Shown one piece after another: positions 1-52,721 of a stretch of 64,000 nt of DNA. The position numbers and the translations under genes were made by a program. The stretch is from assembly GCA_020073165.1 (NCBI GenBank), contig JAIQFP010000022.1, positions 16,936 through 80,935 on the forward strand, given 5' to 3'. Under the pieces are notes generated by a model. It ran no database searches. It was not told where the DNA came from and saw only the letters and a program-made list of their open reading frames with translations. This DNA is from Terriglobia bacterium. Lineage in GTDB: Bacteria > Acidobacteriota > Terriglobia > Terriglobales > Acidobacteriaceae. How positions within the stretch are numbered: the stretch's first letter is position 1; each line of letters starts with the position of its first letter.

Positions 1-45
1 GTGGCTTTCGACGCGCATCCCCAGGCTTTGTAAGCAAGAAAATGC

Positions 46-14697: not shown

Positions 14698-15924
14698 CTA
14701 ATGCCGGTAGACGGTTGTGGCGGGATGATAGTTCCGCCAGTCGAACCAGTAGTCCTTGAGGGCCGGTAATTGCTCCAAGCAGTGGCCCGTGGCCGGACCC
14801 ATGGTGGCGCAGCCCCGAAAATTCCATTCGCTGCCAGACGAGGAATCGACGAGCACCCAATCCGCGCTGCCACTCTTGCGGAACAACTCAAGGTCGGCTC
14901 CGTCCAACCGGCTCCGAAAAGCGCGCACCGACTTCCCGTCGGGTGCCATCACCAGCAGGATCGGCATCCCACCGAGCCGGTCCTGGATGGGGGACTGCGC
15001 CGAGAGCGCATTCAGCGGATAGGCGCGACTGACGCCGCTTACATCAAGCCCTACGACTACATCCCGGGATTGCAGTCCGCTGCCCGGAAAGCTGAGCGGG
15101 GTCGGCAACCTCTGCACCTCCGGTTCCCAGTCGTTCTCGTAATGGCCTTCATCGGCCGCAACCGGAGTGAGCACTTGCCCGGCGGGAGATTCCTGCTTCC
15201 ACAATCCGAAAGTCAACTCGTCACTGACAACCGGATCGAGCACTTGTCCTTTCAGCGTGCCGAAAATAGCTCTTCCCGTGACCTGCTGCCACCAGCTACC
15301 CGTTTCTTCATCGCGCATGAGAAAGTTTTGGTTATTGATTCCCGCCAGGCGAAAGTGCAACGCGCGTCCACCCACCGTACGTTTCCACACCAGACCGGTG
15401 TGACAGAGCGTTCAATAGGTGACCGCGATGGGTATGCCCCCCACGATGTCGTTGACCACGTGGTGATATGCCATGGCGCGGATGGGATAGGCGCGGACAT
15501 CGCTGCCGAAGCGGACTGCCATCACCATCTGTGCGGGATCCAGCTTGACGTTTGCCGCAGACTCGAACCCGGGTAAGGCGACGGGATGGAACATCCACTC
15601 GAAATAATCCACGCGCGCCATGACTGCGGCCGCTGAAGCCAGGCCAACACCCAAGACCAGCAAGGCTTTCTTCCAAGTTGAAGTGCGCCGCCACAGGAAA
15701 AGTGCCAGAAGCAGCGCCAGGGCCGCCGTTAACAAACTTCCAAGCGGCGCCTGCTGTCGCACCGCCATGGCCAACGAGAGCGCATCGGGCGTCTGCGGTC
15801 GGAAGGGCCGGATGATGAACGCTGGAACAAAAAAGAGGCCAACGCTCGTCAACACCAACAGCGCGAACAGCAGGCCTGGAGCAAGGTGGTTTCTCTTCAT
15901 CCGAATCTGCGCTGCGGTGGTCAA
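14698..15924 (-). CDS. DUF3179 protein with in-frame UGA: candidate selenoprotein
   Basis: Reading through one UGA (15412-15414) gives a continuous 408-aa DUF3179 protein. The N-terminus has two or three membrane spans (FALLVLTSVGLFFVPAFII; LLTAALALLLALFLW). The family core spans the UGA: DVRAYPIRAMAYHHVVNDIV, then GGIPIAVTY-U-TLCHTGLVWKR. In DUF3179 proteins this position is Cys in the VTYCxLC motif, so the UGA replaces the first Cys of Cys-x-x-Cys (U171, C174). The frame is open and conserved on both sides. The start is TTG at 15924 with GGAGG nine bases upstream. Alternatives are a nonsense-mutated pseudogene or a sequencing error (UGC to UGA). Role of the family is unknown; a redox function is implied by UxxC. 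Confidence 0.7.
15386..15402 (-). other. Candidate bacterial SECIS hairpin after the DUF3179 UGA
   Basis: Nine bases after the UGA, the minus strand folds into CACACC-GGTCT-GGTGTG: a perfect 6-bp stem with a five-base loop that begins GGU. Bacterial SECIS elements lie inside the reading frame just after UGA and carry a loop G (often GU). As I recall, the E. coli fdhF loop also contains GGUCU. The spacing here is slightly shorter than in fdhF. Confidence 0.5.
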
Positions 15925-16063
15925 AGCCGGTCGCCTCCGTCTGGCTCAGGCAAACCCTCCAATTCTATCCTCATTCTGTCGTTAGGCGTTCGGGCATGGC
16001 GGTTGGTGATGAGCCTTGAGGAGCGACGATCAATCCGCGCGCCGGCCGCGACCGAAAGCAAAA

Positions 16064-16092
16064 GCCCCGATCCTGCTGAGCAGGATCGGGGC
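16064..16092 (-). terminator. Terminator of the minor pilin operon
   Basis: A perfect 13-bp stem, GCCCCGATCCTGC (16064-16076) with GCAGGATCGGGGC (16080-16092), and a three-base loop. On the minus strand it is followed by TTTTGCTTT. It lies 23 bases past the stop of pilX. Confidence 0.9.
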
Positions 16093-16114: not shown

Positions 16115-18766
16115 TTAGTAGGGAGTGAAGTCCTGGCGATAACTCACGTTGTTGACGTCCTCAAACTGGGGCGTACCCGGCGGCAGGTTGTTCGGGTTCA
16201 GGAACAAGCTGTCGAACGAATACACACGGTTGGGCGGACTGTACACCGTGGTGCAACACTTGAAGACCCCGGTGGCGTATTGCGCGTAGAACAAGCTCAC
16301 CAGTGAGCCCTGGTAGTTCAAGTTGCCCGGCCACTGCTCGATGTAGCGCAGGAAGTTGTGCACTCCGCCGTCGGTACCGTAGTCGGCGGCCGCGCCCCAG
16401 CCCTGCGGTTGCGGGAAGTTGAAGTTCTTTCCGGCGGCAATGGCCACTCTATACCAAGTGTCGACTGCCACCCGGCTGCCCGGTGTCGTGGGATAGTAGA
16501 AGCTCTTGAAATCGCTCCAGCCATTCTTGGCCAAGGTTGGTAAGGGCGCCGGTCTCGAAAGCAGGGTGACCGCATCGGCAATCACCGCCGCGGCGGAATC
16601 CGGGGTGGCGAAGGCACCGTTAGCATTGTAGTCACCCAGGATGTACACCGGGTTCTCCGAGGCCACGGTAAAGCCGCCGGTGCCGTCCTTCCGCGTAGGC
16701 AGCTTGCCCAGCGTGCCGTCCACCAGCCGTAGCACGTGGCGCGCAGCGGAAACCCGGTTCTTGCGGGCCAAGGTCAGGCATTTGACGCGCTGGTACGGGT
16801 TAAACGGCGGTAAGTTGTTGATCGAGGGCGCCGGGGTAACGAAGGCGTCCATGATCGTTTTGGCGCCCCAGTTGTCCGCCAGTCCATTCTGGTTCACGTC
16901 CTCCGGAGACTGCACGGTGCCAGGGTTATTGGGATCCAGGGCGTTGTCGGGTGTCCCCAAGGCCGACGCCTTGTTGATGGTGTCTTCGAAGCCGTACTCA
17001 CCCGTCAAAGCCGGCGGAACGGTGTTCGGACTTAGTGCCATTCCACGGCGGTCCGAGAAGTACAGCAGGTAGCCGTTGAGGGTCTGCTCGTCGACCAGCT
17101 TCCCGTTGGCGGAGTTGACCAGCCAGGAACGCAGGTTGCCTACATCCAACTCCACCACGTTGATCACGCCGTTGGCGGCGCAGGTGGCATTGACGCCGGT
17201 CTTGCCCGGGTCGGTGTCGCGCACTTCACCTTCGCGCGCATCGTACATGTTGATCGGGTACCAGTTGTAGCGGGTCGCGGTCGCGGAGTTGCTCTCCGGC
17301 AAGGTGTTGGTGACAGTTTCGTCCGCGTTGCGGTCTGCCAGTTGCTGGAAGATCAGAATGGCATTGGGATTGGGCCCACCGGCAGCGCCGGGCGCCAGAC
17401 CGCGCGCGAAGCCCAGTTTTAGCCATTCATTGGTGACACCTATCCAGGTGCCGTCTGGCTTCTTGACCTCTACCCGCAGCCAGCCGTCAATGAGCGGCCA
17501 CCGTTTTGTACCGACGTATAGCGTGGGCGGGATCTGGTCCCCGGCCGCATCGATATACTTGTCGCCGGCGACAGTGCTGGCATAGGCGAAGTGCACATTG
17601 CCGACGCCCGTGACCGGAACACCAGCGGTGTAGGTGGCGCCCAGGCCGGCTTCTTCACTCAAGAGCACGTCCTCACCGTCGTTCAGAGTAGCGTCTGCGT
17701 CCGGGTGAAGGTCCGTCTTGAGGTCTCCCAGCAGGATGCGGATTTGTGCCTTGTTGTAAAGCCTCGAAGTGGACAGCGTCGTCCCGGTCGCTTCATTGGC
17801 GGGCGGTTTGCGGATGATCTGGATGGGTCCCACGCCGGCGCCCACAAAGGGCAGCTGCAAAGCTTTCGCTCCCGTAAGGCCGTTCAGAATCCAGCCGTTG
17901 TAAGTGCCGGTGGAAATGCCCACCCAGCTCCCGTTCGGAGCTCCCGTAGGCGGCGGCCCGCCGGTGTAGCTCCCCCCCGAAGGCGGGTTCACGTTCGTTG
18001 GCGGATTGATTCCCAGGTTGATGCAGTGGGTTGCGCTTTTCGGCGGGTCACATGCATTTGCGGTATTGGGAATGTAAACCGGTCCGCCGTGGCTGGACGT
18101 GGCGGCGCCAACTCCATTCGCCAGTTGGTCGCGGATCACTTCCTTGGCCGCAGTAATCTTGGAGTGGAAGGTCAGGGTGCCTCCCGGAGTGATGAAGAGG
18201 CTGCCATTGGTGGCTACCCGGCCGGCGAAGTCGAAGTCAGGTCCGGGGAAATAGCTCAGATCGCTGTCGGAGAACACGCCGAACTGGAACACCGGGATAA
18301 GCGCGACCTCCACCGAGCGCTGCATGCGCACCGACGCGCCGGAGGGGCGCTGCGAGGTCACCGACAGTGTTATGGGGATGATTTCTGCCACCAGGCCGGC
18401 GTTGGGTCCGGACTTGACGTTATCAATATTGGTCACCGGGTTGCCTTTGGCATCCACCGGCACATTGATGTTGTACTCCGTGAAGGCGACGTGGGGAACG
18501 TCCGGGGGAAAGGCGTTGAGGGCGGTGATGCTGCCGACCGACGGGGCCTGATTTGCGGTGTACAGATTCCCCAGGTCGGAGGTCATCTTCTCCATGCCCG
18601 CTTCCGCGCCGTAGTAGGCCAGGTTGTTCTCCATGTCATTCCCACCCACACGGGCTTCCGTGTTGGTCATGTACATGAGACCGACGGCCAGGCCTGACAT
18701 CAGCAGCAGCAGCAGCAGGGCTGCGATCAACGTGAAGCCTTTCGCACGGGACTGATTGGTACCCAT
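16115..18766 (-). CDS. pilX: PilX-like minor pilin / pilus assembly protein
   Basis: 883 aa from the ATG at 18766, chosen because AGGAGA lies eight bases upstream. It starts with a type IV pilin-like leader (QSRAKGFTLIAALLLLLLMSG); the prepilin peptidase would cut before the Phe. The membrane helix is followed by TNTEARVGGNDMENNLAYYGAE, as in PilX N-terminal domains. The large C-terminal part is rich in Asn, Pro and Gly and lacks a domain I recognise. It is far longer than proteobacterial PilX, as is usual in Acidobacteriota. Last gene of the fimT-pilV-pilW-pilX operon. Confidence 0.85.
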   Translation of the reverse strand: MGTNQSRAKGFTLIAALLLLLLMSGLAVGLMYMTNTEARVGGNDMENNLAYYGAEAGMEKMTSDLGNLYTANQAPSVGSITALNAFPPDVPHVAFTEYNINVPVDAKGNPVTNIDNVKSGPNAGLVAEIIPITLSVTSQRPSGASVRMQRSVEVALIPVFQFGVFSDSDLSYFPGPDFDFAGRVATNGSLFITPGGTLTFHSKITAAKEVIRDQLANGVGAATSSHGGPVYIPNTANACDPPKSATHCINLGINPPTNVNPPSGGSYTGGPPPTGAPNGSWVGISTGTYNGWILNGLTGAKALQLPFVGAGVGPIQIIRKPPANEATGTTLSTSRLYNKAQIRILLGDLKTDLHPDADATLNDGEDVLLSEEAGLGATYTAGVPVTGVGNVHFAYASTVAGDKYIDAAGDQIPPTLYVGTKRWPLIDGWLRVEVKKPDGTWIGVTNEWLKLGFARGLAPGAAGGPNPNAILIFQQLADRNADETVTNTLPESNSATATRYNWYPINMYDAREGEVRDTDPGKTGVNATCAANGVINVVELDVGNLRSWLVNSANGKLVDEQTLNGYLLYFSDRRGMALSPNTVPPALTGEYGFEDTINKASALGTPDNALDPNNPGTVQSPEDVNQNGLADNWGAKTIMDAFVTPAPSINNLPPFNPYQRVKCLTLARKNRVSAARHVLRLVDGTLGKLPTRKDGTGGFTVASENPVYILGDYNANGAFATPDSAAAVIADAVTLLSRPAPLPTLAKNGWSDFKSFYYPTTPGSRVAVDTWYRVAIAAGKNFNFPQPQGWGAAADYGTDGGVHNFLRYIEQWPGNLNYQGSLVSLFYAQYATGVFKCCTTVYSPPNRVYSFDSLFLNPNNLPPGTPQFEDVNNVSYRQDFTPY

Positions 18767-18816
18767 AACGGTTCTCCTCAATTCCTCCATACGTGTCCTT
18801 CCAGCTAGCTTTCCCC

Positions 18817-19956
18817 TCATTGGTAGCGATCCTTGAAGCTCATGTCACGGGCGCTGACCGAAGTGGCCAGGTTCAGTGTCTGGAACCCTTGCTTGCCACC
18901 CGGCATGGGGCTGCGCGTCATCACGCTGAGATTCACCTTGCGGATCTGGTTGGGGGACTTTCCGGCGGACATCCCGGCATCCTTCAGATTGGCGGTGGCC
19001 ACGCCGGCCACGTCGTCATAAATGTCGTAACTGGCTTGCAGCCCGGCCACGTTCTCTGCGACCGGCACCGGCGACTGCCCATTCACCTGTTTCATCAGGC
19101 GGGGCGGCCCATCGTCTGCGGTATAGCGGATCCCGTCTGCTCCCGCAGGAATGTCGATGTAATAGGTGAGCACCAGGAGGCGGTTGCAGACGATCGGCGG
19201 CGGGACTGCCGGCGGGGCCGCGCCTCCCCAAAGCGCCTTGATATTGCCGCCGGCCGCGGTGTTCTGATTGATACGGAGGGCGTCGCCGTTGGCAAAGGTC
19301 ACCACACCCCCGGCCCCGACCAGCGTGACCTCGCCTATCGCCTGTCCCACGCTGTTGCTGAACAGGATCAGGTCACCGACTTTCAATCCCACTGCGGGAT
19401 CATTGATGGCTGGCGGCGGCCACGGCACGGGTAGTGGATTAGGGGCGGGATTGACCGGGGTGAAGGTTGCCTGACTGCCACTCGCGTTCAGCGCCACGCT
19501 GTACTCGTTCAGCGGGAAGGTGGTGTCCGTGTAGGCGATCGTAAGCACGTCGGTAGGCGGACTCAGCACCCCCGCGGCCGTCATCACTTTCAACCCGGCT
19601 GCCGGGTTGGGAATCACCCCGTAGAGGTGATTGTTGATGGGATAAATATTGTTGGTGGTGTAGCACGTGGTCTGGTCGCAGCCGAAAAGCGAACCCGTGG
19701 CCCCGGCCCCATCCGGCAACTGTACTCCGCCCGAGGTGATGCCGGCGCCCGCCAGGCTGATGTCTTTGGCCATCATGTCCAGCGCAGCCCGGCCGTCCTG
19801 CTGCATTTCGGCGCGCTGGGTTACCAGGAAGCTGGCGCCCAGCGCCTTGCTGAACAGGTTCACGGCTGCAGATAGAATGACCAAGCCCATGGCCATGGCT
19901 ACCAGCAACTCCGCCAAGCTAAAGCCACGATTTTTCGTTCTGTCGCTACGCCTCAT
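18817..19956 (-). CDS. pilW: PilW-like minor pilin
   Basis: 379 aa with a prepilin leader KNRGFSLAELLVAMAMGLVI (processing after Gly, Phe+1, Glu+5) and the phrase QQDGRAALDMMAKDISLAGAG typical of PilW. The rest is a beta-rich minor-pilin head with VAENVAGLQASYDIYDD near the C-terminus. It lies between pilV and pilX on one strand and would join a pilus tip or priming complex. Confidence 0.88.
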   Translation of the reverse strand: MRRSDRTKNRGFSLAELLVAMAMGLVILSAAVNLFSKALGASFLVTQRAEMQQDGRAALDMMAKDISLAGAGITSGGVQLPDGAGATGSLFGCDQTTCYTTNNIYPINNHLYGVIPNPAAGLKVMTAAGVLSPPTDVLTIAYTDTTFPLNEYSVALNASGSQATFTPVNPAPNPLPVPWPPPAINDPAVGLKVGDLILFSNSVGQAIGEVTLVGAGGVVTFANGDALRINQNTAAGGNIKALWGGAAPPAVPPPIVCNRLLVLTYYIDIPAGADGIRYTADDGPPRLMKQVNGQSPVPVAENVAGLQASYDIYDDVAGVATANLKDAGMSAGKSPNQIRKVNLSVMTRSPMPGGKQGFQTLNLATSVSARDMSFKDRYQ

Positions 19957-19967
19957 GAGTCATCCCT

Positions 19968-20567
19968 CTAGCGGAACTGGGAAATGTACGCGCCCACGGC
20001 ATACGTCTTCTGCGTGGCCTTGAACTGACTGGTGGTGTAGGTCACGGTGACGGTAATGGAGCGCAAGGTCGAATCGATGCCGCCACCCGGAGCCCCGACG
20101 TTGGCAATGGCGATAGTGCGCTGGTAGTTGTTGAGGGGCTGCATCACGTCATCGGCAGTGCCCAGCACTCCGTCGGGCCCCGGCAGCACCAGGCACTGCG
20201 AAGGTCCGGGACAATAGGGGTTGGCATTGGTGTCGTCGGCGGTCCCATCCAGCCCGTCTTTACCGGGGTCCAATACAGGCTGAGCGTTGTCCAGGAAAAT
20301 GCCGCCGTTGCTCACATTCTGAATCTGGTTCCAGGTGATCTGCGAAGTGTTGCGCGCGGTGAAGATACTCTCCAGCGTGGCCGCCGCTTCCTGCTTGGCG
20401 ATCATGTCTTCCTGCGCCGAGTTCGTGGAGGCCAGGGCCACGGAAAACATGGCCAGCATGCTCACCATGCCGATGGTGAGCACCACGATCGAGAACAACA
20501 CTTCCAGAATGCTGAAGCCCTGCTCGGCCGGGCGAGGGCGAAGCTCGGAGCGAATTTGTCCAGCCAT
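19968..20567 (-). CDS. pilV: PilV-like minor pilin
   Basis: About 199 aa from the Met at 20567 (MAGQIRSE). An in-frame Met at 20573 would overlap the upstream gene by four bases (ATGA-like coupling). The prepilin leader is AEQGFSILEVLFSIVVLTIG, cleaved before Phe. NSAQEDMIAKQEAAATLESIF resembles PilV proteins. Only 11 bases separate it from pilW, so the genes are co-transcribed. Confidence 0.85.
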   Translation of the reverse strand: MAGQIRSELRPRPAEQGFSILEVLFSIVVLTIGMVSMLAMFSVALASTNSAQEDMIAKQEAAATLESIFTARNTSQITWNQIQNVSNGGIFLDNAQPVLDPGKDGLDGTADDTNANPYCPGPSQCLVLPGPDGVLGTADDVMQPLNNYQRTIAIANVGAPGGGIDSTLRSITVTVTYTTSQFKATQKTYAVGAYISQFR

Positions 20568-20569
20568 CG

Positions 20570-21247
20570 TCATTGCTGACTCCAGTGCGGAATCCCGGCG
20601 GTCTGCGATGCGTACAAACGCCATCCGCGTATGCGGCCTGCGGAACCAATCATGGTGATGGCCCGCGAACTGTAAAGCTCGTTGACCCGCGCCAGGTAGA
20701 CCACGCCGTTGTTGATGTTGTTGTTGACGTCGCGCGCCGACCCGTCAGGGAAAAAGTAAATCTGGTTTTCCACGCCGCCTGCCACCCCGATATCGAACTG
20801 CACCGCCTTGCTACCCGTGCCCAGACCGTCGGGGGTGGTCGTGACCGTGTTGGGGATCCCGGGTATGTTCAAGAACTGAATGTCGGGGGGGAGGGTCATC
20901 TGGTTGACCACCGGGCCGACCAACCCGGCATCCATGCGGTTGATCTGGATCATGTTGGTACCGGGAGGAAGGCCGACGGGATTGAAAGTCACCTGATAGG
21001 TTTTGCGGTTGTCGACAGCCCATTGCCGCGCCTGCCGGAGCGTCATCAAGGTCCCGTTGTAGGCGGCGTTCAGGCGCGCATCCTGCCACGCCGGCCGCAG
21101 GCTGTAGTACGAGATCCCACTCATGATCAGGACGATGCTGATCGCGATCAGCGCCTCGATCAAAGTAAAACCGCGTGCATTCTTGGAAGGCATGTGCCCT
21201 TTCTTGGGAGAGGCTGGCTCGCGGTTCATGTCGTGTCCAGGGGTCAT
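20570..21247 (-). CDS. fimT: FimT/GspH-type minor pseudopilin
   Basis: 225 aa with a prepilin leader at about residues 20-45 (KNARGFTLIEALIAISIVLI) and the GspH/FimT-like phrases LMTLRQARQWAVDNRKTYQV and YFFPDGSARD. First gene of the minor pilin operon. The most upstream Met is used here; the Met before PSKNARGF is an alternative and gives a shorter leader. Confidence 0.85.
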   Translation of the reverse strand: MTPGHDMNREPASPKKGHMPSKNARGFTLIEALIAISIVLIMSGISYYSLRPAWQDARLNAAYNGTLMTLRQARQWAVDNRKTYQVTFNPVGLPPGTNMIQINRMDAGLVGPVVNQMTLPPDIQFLNIPGIPNTVTTTPDGLGTGSKAVQFDIGVAGGVENQIYFFPDGSARDVNNNINNGVVYLARVNELYSSRAITMIGSAGRIRGWRLYASQTAGIPHWSQQ

Positions 21248-52256: not shown

Positions 52257-52721
52257 TCAGGCTTCCCGGCGGCGCCTCACGAAGATCTCCTCGCCGCGAA
52301 CTTGCACTTCGTAACTTTCCAAAGGACGTGGCGGGGGCCCAGAGATGTTCCGGCCGTTCAAGTCGTACATGCCGTTGTGGCAGGCGCACCAGACTTCATG
52401 CAAGTCATCGCGATACTGCACGGTGCAGGAAAGATGAGTGCACGTCGCCGACATGGCACGATACTGCCCATCGGCGGTGCGGATCAGCAATCCGGGGCGG
52501 TTGCCGAAGCGAAAAATCTTGCCGCTGTTCGGCTTCAATTCTCCGACCCGGCCGGCAACGACGGAATCGGCGCCCAAGTCGGACGCTTTGGGCGGAATCA
52601 AGTAGCGCAATACGGGATAGAAGAAAGCGGCCGCTGTGGCCAGAAATCCGCCACTCAGCAAGACCTCCACAAAACGTCTGCGCGGCAACGGCGCTGACAG
52701 CCGCTCACTCGGGTTGATCAT
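52257..52721 (-). CDS. Rieske iron-sulfur protein
   Basis: 154 aa with an N-terminal uncleaved membrane anchor ([20 protein letters not shown]) beginning with twin Arg, as in Tat-routed Rieske proteins. The [2Fe-2S] ligands are in CTHLSC and CACHNG. It is the first gene of the minus-strand operon Rieske-cytochrome b-9-heme cytochrome, one base from the next gene. Its promoter region, shared with the divergent radical SAM gene, has two GTGA-N6-TCAC sites. Confidence 0.93.

Follow-up and report, generated by a model that had tools for sequence, protein, structure and literature searches.

Passages of two reviews (PMC9312934 and PMC13188914) count the DUF3179 family (Pfam PF11376) among the selenoprotein families, with the motif UxxC/T, where U stands for selenocysteine (Sec), and the first of them credits the entry to Zhang and Gladyshev 2007, its reference 63; 'Acidobacter' has no match in the main text of either. 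A passage of PMC12013277 describes one Acidobacteriota genome with three known selenoprotein genes, without naming them. In this study, we analyzed a stretch of 64,000 nucleotides (nt) from a Terriglobia bacterium of the Acidobacteriota (GCA_020073165.1, contig JAIQFP010000022.1, positions 16,936 to 80,935), hereafter called the window, and found that a gene on its minus strand (14698..15924) is a well-supported new member of this known family. Judged from sequence comparison, it very probably encodes a selenoprotein in which Sec is inserted at codon 171 by means of tRNA-Sec, SelB and a hairpin, giving a U-x-x-C motif in a predicted membrane-anchored DUF3179 oxidoreductase. An earlier note on the same DNA had proposed a possible new selenoprotein family, not knowing of DUF3179 described as such. 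The novelty does not hold against the entries in the two reviews, and close homologues (P0050 and P0109, for instance) bear the NCBI name 'DUF3179 domain-containing (seleno)protein'; the note's reading of the UGA as a Sec codon within UxxC, served by a bacterial Sec insertion sequence (SECIS), is very likely right, given the codon alternation, the hairpin and the machinery described below. The acidobacterial branch of this gene shares with the published family the Pfam domain, Sec as the first residue of UxxC and the existence of Cys homologues, but differs in its three predicted transmembrane helices and in a hairpin whose GGUCU loop is 15 nt from the UGA; a second branch departs from UxxC/T in carrying UxxA, V or D.

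Read with UGA as Sec, the frame has 408 codons, as supported by the Pfam match, the list of open reading frames (ORFs) and the translation, from a probable TTG start (15922-15924) to a TAG stop (14698-14700). A Shine-Dalgarno-like GGAGG (15934..15938, minus strand) lies 9 nt 5' of the TTG, and an ATG at codon 9 is an alternative start. DUF3179 matches residues 118-403 (E 1.1e-63; 215.9 bits against a curated cut-off of 27), and NCBIfam has no model for the protein. The only UGA of the frame (15412..15414, minus strand) is the predicted Sec codon 171, in the context AVTY-U-TLCHTGLVW. The frame is open and family-like on both sides of a single UGA, as the earlier note had claimed, and homologues carry an invariant Cys where the note had placed the UGA, at the first Cys of VTYCxLC. 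Ordinary ORF calling splits the gene at this codon into a 170-residue ORF and a 230-residue ORF starting from a GTG.

The SECIS of Escherichia coli fdhF has the apical loop GGUCU about 18 nt from the UGA. A similar coding-region hairpin right after the UGA, with the same apical loop, is present in the window: CACACC-GGTCT-GGTGTG, 17 nt in length (15386..15402, minus strand), begins 9 nt after the UGA and has a stem of 6 bp (7 with a U-G pair) and a GGUCU loop of 5 nt (15392-15396). This is the perfect 6-bp hairpin that had been noted earlier. It is shorter than the fdhF element, with 15 nt from UGA to loop, and shows no bulged U. The bacterial SECIS model in the Fig 2 legend of PMC13188914 specifies a loop of 3-9 nt, a stem of 4-16 bp, a G in the first two loop positions, a minimum free energy of at most −7.5 and 16-37 nt between the UGA and the apical loop. 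The window hairpin agrees with that legend in loop, stem, loop G and free energy, and its spacing is 15 nt strictly, or 16 nt if a G-U pair forms between the outermost loop bases. Rfam gave no match at the hairpin when positions 15300-15500 were scanned. The 48 nt from the UGA fold with −13.4 kcal/mol (z −0.24), and 69 of 200 shuffled sequences fold as well. The window also contains 21 UGAs that are flanked on either side by 120 or more codons without a stop, that of codon 171 among them. Because such open-frame UGAs are common and the folding energy is ordinary, the case for Sec rests on comparison with related genes.

The codon at site 171 is TGA in 101, TGC in 3 and TGT in 1 of the 105 loci with an alignable site, so that UGA and Cys codons do alternate there, which the earlier note had suggested checking. 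In 31 loci fetched later and picked for a reported TGA, the TGA falls at exactly this site in all 31; both sets include duplicates (one genome under two locus ids), which were collapsed only in the synonymous hairpin test, and there only for loci identical over the 350 nt surrounding the site. All 36 distinct non-UGA loci examined carry TGC or TGT. Neither TAA nor TAG occurs among the aligned sites read, and the frames of the relatives extend beyond the site and reach a stop at comparable lengths without decay, three loci running off their contigs; random stops with frame decay, which would have spoken against Sec, were thus not found. The 80 named relatives listed belong to the Terriglobia or to other Acidobacteria and are, with few exceptions, metagenome-assembled genomes. 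The closest among the matches listed is 82% identical, and the source is most probably an uncultured acidobacterium, likely of soil.

Evidence for the hairpin comes from genes that encode the same peptide. CHTGLVW forms the seven residues after U/C-x-x in 93 of 109 distinct UGA genes and in 10 of 36 distinct Cys genes, and the exact 17-mer is found in 90 of these 93 UGA genes but in none of the 10 Cys genes, against 0.6% expected under random synonymous coding with local codon usage. All six stem pairs are formed in 91 of the 93 UGA genes and in 1 of the 10 Cys genes, the other nine having four or five; since random synonymous coding yields all six pairs in 22% of cases, pair counts separate the two groups less sharply than the exact sequence does. 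These codon comparisons indicate that the hairpin downstream of the UGA is kept by selection.

A distant DUF3179 branch, in which the motif is mostly W-U-P-L, has a second hairpin geometry, with a 7-bp stem at +17..23/+29..35 and 20 nt from UGA to loop. In its 29 distinct loci, 192 of 203 pairs are formed (21 loci with seven pairs, five with six and three with five), and the loop is CGTGT in 18. When the 3' halves were permuted 5000 times, the mean was 165 pairs (standard deviation 3.2, maximum 181), which is not a strict probability since the sequences are related, and sliding gave 49-89. The stem covaries, with both sides changing (GC/TA/CG, CG/AT/TA and GC/AT), and 36 Cys homologues form only one to five of the seven pairs.

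The genome to which the window belongs (4.6 Mb in 35 contigs, and 100% complete according to the tool used) contains the whole Sec machinery that the earlier note had proposed to look for: tRNA-Sec (70.3 bits; tRNA-SeC(tca) by ARAGORN), and by profile search selB (370.7 bits) and selA (over the cut-off), as well as selD (L020, C2:127687-128313). The selD gene itself has one in-frame TGA, in AAG-U-ASK, so that two or more selenoprotein genes are predicted in this genome. In the window's family (f1), selB is over the cut-off in all eight UGA genomes (G000, G001, G007, G011, G015, G023, G026 and G029) and in none of the ten Cys genomes (G150, G186, G211, G219, G227, G286, G381, G389, G411 and G422), with G404 (E 4.9e-4) excluded from the comparison; the Fisher p of 2.3e-5 overstates independence because the genomes are related. 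None of these ten has tRNA-Sec at E ≤ 1.2e-10, a threshold that was chosen after the values were known and is stricter than that of Rfam; the nearest is G186 at 3.4e-9, which may pass the Rfam cut-off. In a sample of 396 genomes of the phylum, 302 pass the Rfam tRNA-Sec cut-off and 254 have selB over the cut-off, and UGA forms of DUF3179 occur in at least 46. In the 46 listed, all with TGA confirmed at site 171, selB is over the cut-off in 41, tRNA-Sec passes the stricter threshold in 40 and at least one of the two is present in 45 (p 1.2e-4 for selB against the other 350).

A tree of 122 rows, made by a quick method with no root inferred, contains seven changes between UGA and Cys, at least five of which are forced by starred branches; L184, L191, L198, L199, L133, L146, L147, L173, L174 and part of L034-L129 were left out. 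Since the ten Cys genes of f1 form one clade placed among UGA genes in this tree, this clade appears to have passed from Sec to Cys upon loss of the machinery or SelB. A highly divergent UGA form, L047 (motif TF-U-VVC), sits on a long branch and perhaps belongs to a separate subfamily.

AlphaFold2 predicts three helices that are probably transmembrane, at residues 14-37 (15814..15885), 46-78 (15691..15789) and 83-104 (15613..15678), followed by two DUF3179 repeats with a predicted Rieske-like fold (all minus strand). Repeat 1 (residues 118-255; 15160..15573) holds Sec171, and repeat 2 (residues 284-406; 14707..15075) has no Cys or Sec at the matching position; the comparison of the two repeats scored 99.9% (E 2.6e-30). 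By sequence, a profile search of the PDB gave no match, and a single-sequence search gave one weak match (E 0.11), which we take as chance. A thioredoxin-like fold as the basis of UxxC was absent from the best 50 matches listed for each Foldseek or VIA search, which does not exclude such a fold. Compared with Rieske ferredoxins and NirD-type small subunits (2qpz, 3c0d, 4aiv and 2jo6), the protein lacks conserved C-x-H / C-x2-H ligands: no such set is found among the invariant or nearly invariant columns of 69 sequences, in which positions 205 and 208 are D and T/S. The model thus predicts a tandem Rieske-like fold without iron-sulfur ligands. By eye, and via repeat 2, the second ligand pair of Rieske proteins corresponds roughly to D205 and T208, and the Sec of the window protein lies on another strand. 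It was also considered that Sec171 is a leftover cluster ligand, given the resemblance of CPLC-G to the CPLH-G of Rieske proteins. This idea was dropped because, in collinear alignments of repeat 2 with Rieske proteins and of repeat 1 with repeat 2 and by range offsets, D205/T208 coincide with the second ligand pair, whereas Sec171 falls on a strand that precedes it. A Rieske protein with C-x-H / C-x2-H ligands (L216) is encoded elsewhere in the window (52308-52562, minus strand).

In the alignment of 69 sequences, 36 of which were read with TGA as Cys, as was P0001 besides, the invariant positions are 171 (Cys or Sec), G195, D205 and G222; His154 is found in 67 and the second Cys (174) in 59. 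Of these invariant positions, 171 alone is capable of redox chemistry. UxxC is present in 73 of the 89 UGA rows of the tree set, and the other 16 (L138, L140, L149, L151, L155, L159, L180, L183, L185, L188-L190 and L193-L196) carry A, T, V or D in place of the second Cys and lack any further Cys in the stretch examined, which begins 75 residues upstream of the site and runs to the C-terminus. UxxC is therefore not obligatory, and in these forms Sec stands alone in the examined stretch. As aligned, the occurrence of A, V or D in place of the second Cys, in addition to T, widens the published UxxC/T motif.

We suggest that the ribosome inserts Sec at UGA codon 171 with the help of tRNA-Sec, SelB and the hairpin that begins 9 nt further on, and that the three predicted helices anchor the protein in the membrane, with the two Rieske-like repeats that follow probably oriented toward the periplasm. 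Sec171 would perform thiol/selenol redox chemistry with His154 and Asp205; Cys174, where present, would resolve it as a selenylsulfide, and forms without another Cys would depend on an external reductant. The substrate might be a periplasmic peroxide or an oxidised thiol, which is a guess. Tentatively, and with rather less than even confidence, we propose that DUF3179 proteins consist of Rieske-fold domains that are duplicated and exported, have lost the iron-sulfur cluster and carry out redox chemistry on one Sec, partnerless in one branch.

If the UGA were a true stop, the gene would be a pseudogene or would encode two proteins, a 170-residue N-terminal membrane piece and a C-terminal piece from the downstream GTG. 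ORF calling does divide it in this way, and the protein database contains pieces of about 230 residues (P0002 and others). However, the site is TGA, TGC or TGT and never TAA or TAG among aligned sites, the frames show no decay, the hairpin sequence is retained only together with UGA, and Cys takes the place of UGA in the f1 genomes without selB, so that we regard a true stop as very improbable. Reading of the UGA as Trp, Cys or another amino acid, in a recoded genome or by a suppressor, would also be consistent with a frame that is open whatever sense the codon is given. This is scarcely credible, since the gene has only one UGA and itself ends in TAG, selB and tRNA-Sec co-occur with the UGA, the replacement is TGC or TGT in 36 of 36 distinct non-UGA loci, and the SECIS covaries. 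Both the pseudogene and read-through for a reason other than Sec were thus rejected on the conservation, the Cys-only replacement and the co-occurrence of the machinery.

A different proposal accepts Sec insertion and questions its role: the protein would not be a redox enzyme, and Sec171 would bind a metal, for example with His154/Asp205, in a degenerate Rieske-like scaffold. The predicted fold, the near-invariant His154 and invariant Asp205, and the UGA forms without other Cys in the examined stretch are compatible with it. On the other hand, most UGA rows have UxxC, which resembles a redox pair, Sec is freely replaced by Cys, and the Rieske-type ligand set is not conserved, which makes a metal site unlikely compared with the redox role that we favor for Sec171. 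Conservation of the UGA, the retention of synonymous hairpin bases only with UGA and the co-occurrence of the Sec machinery appear far above chance, and on these comparative grounds Sec insertion at codon 171 is strongly supported.

No neighbor is conserved across the whole set of 100 loci, in which genes were named by eye: a PilX-like gene lies upstream in 26 and a PilW-like gene in 20, a zinc-ribbon/SnoaL-like gene is present in 22, and a HAD-like hydrolase gene, absent from the window, follows downstream in the same orientation in 20 (at a median distance of 79 nt). We draw no function from these neighbors because they look like lineage-specific surroundings. In the window, minor type IV pilin-like genes (PilX-, PilW-, PilV- and FimT-like by eye) lie upstream (16115-21247, minus strand), and between a pilin-like gene and the DUF3179 gene there is a 13-bp inverted repeat, GCCCCGATCCTGC ... 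GCAGGATCGGGGC, followed by TTTT (16060-16092, minus strand), perhaps a terminator by eye.

Genes of this kind are easily misannotated because ordinary ORF calling cuts them at the UGA. The family also offers a natural experiment, in which genes for identical peptides either have a SECIS or lack one, and one clade apparently moved from Sec to Cys on SelB loss. We know of no earlier link between a Rieske-like fold and selenium, and the predicted cluster-less fold offers a structural hypothesis that can be tested, for a family known in Pfam simply as a domain of unknown function. If the proposal is true, the Acidobacteriota would have, across the phylum, a Sec enzyme built on a Rieske fold, with two SECIS geometries and repeated switches between UGA and Cys, one of which would track the loss of SelB.
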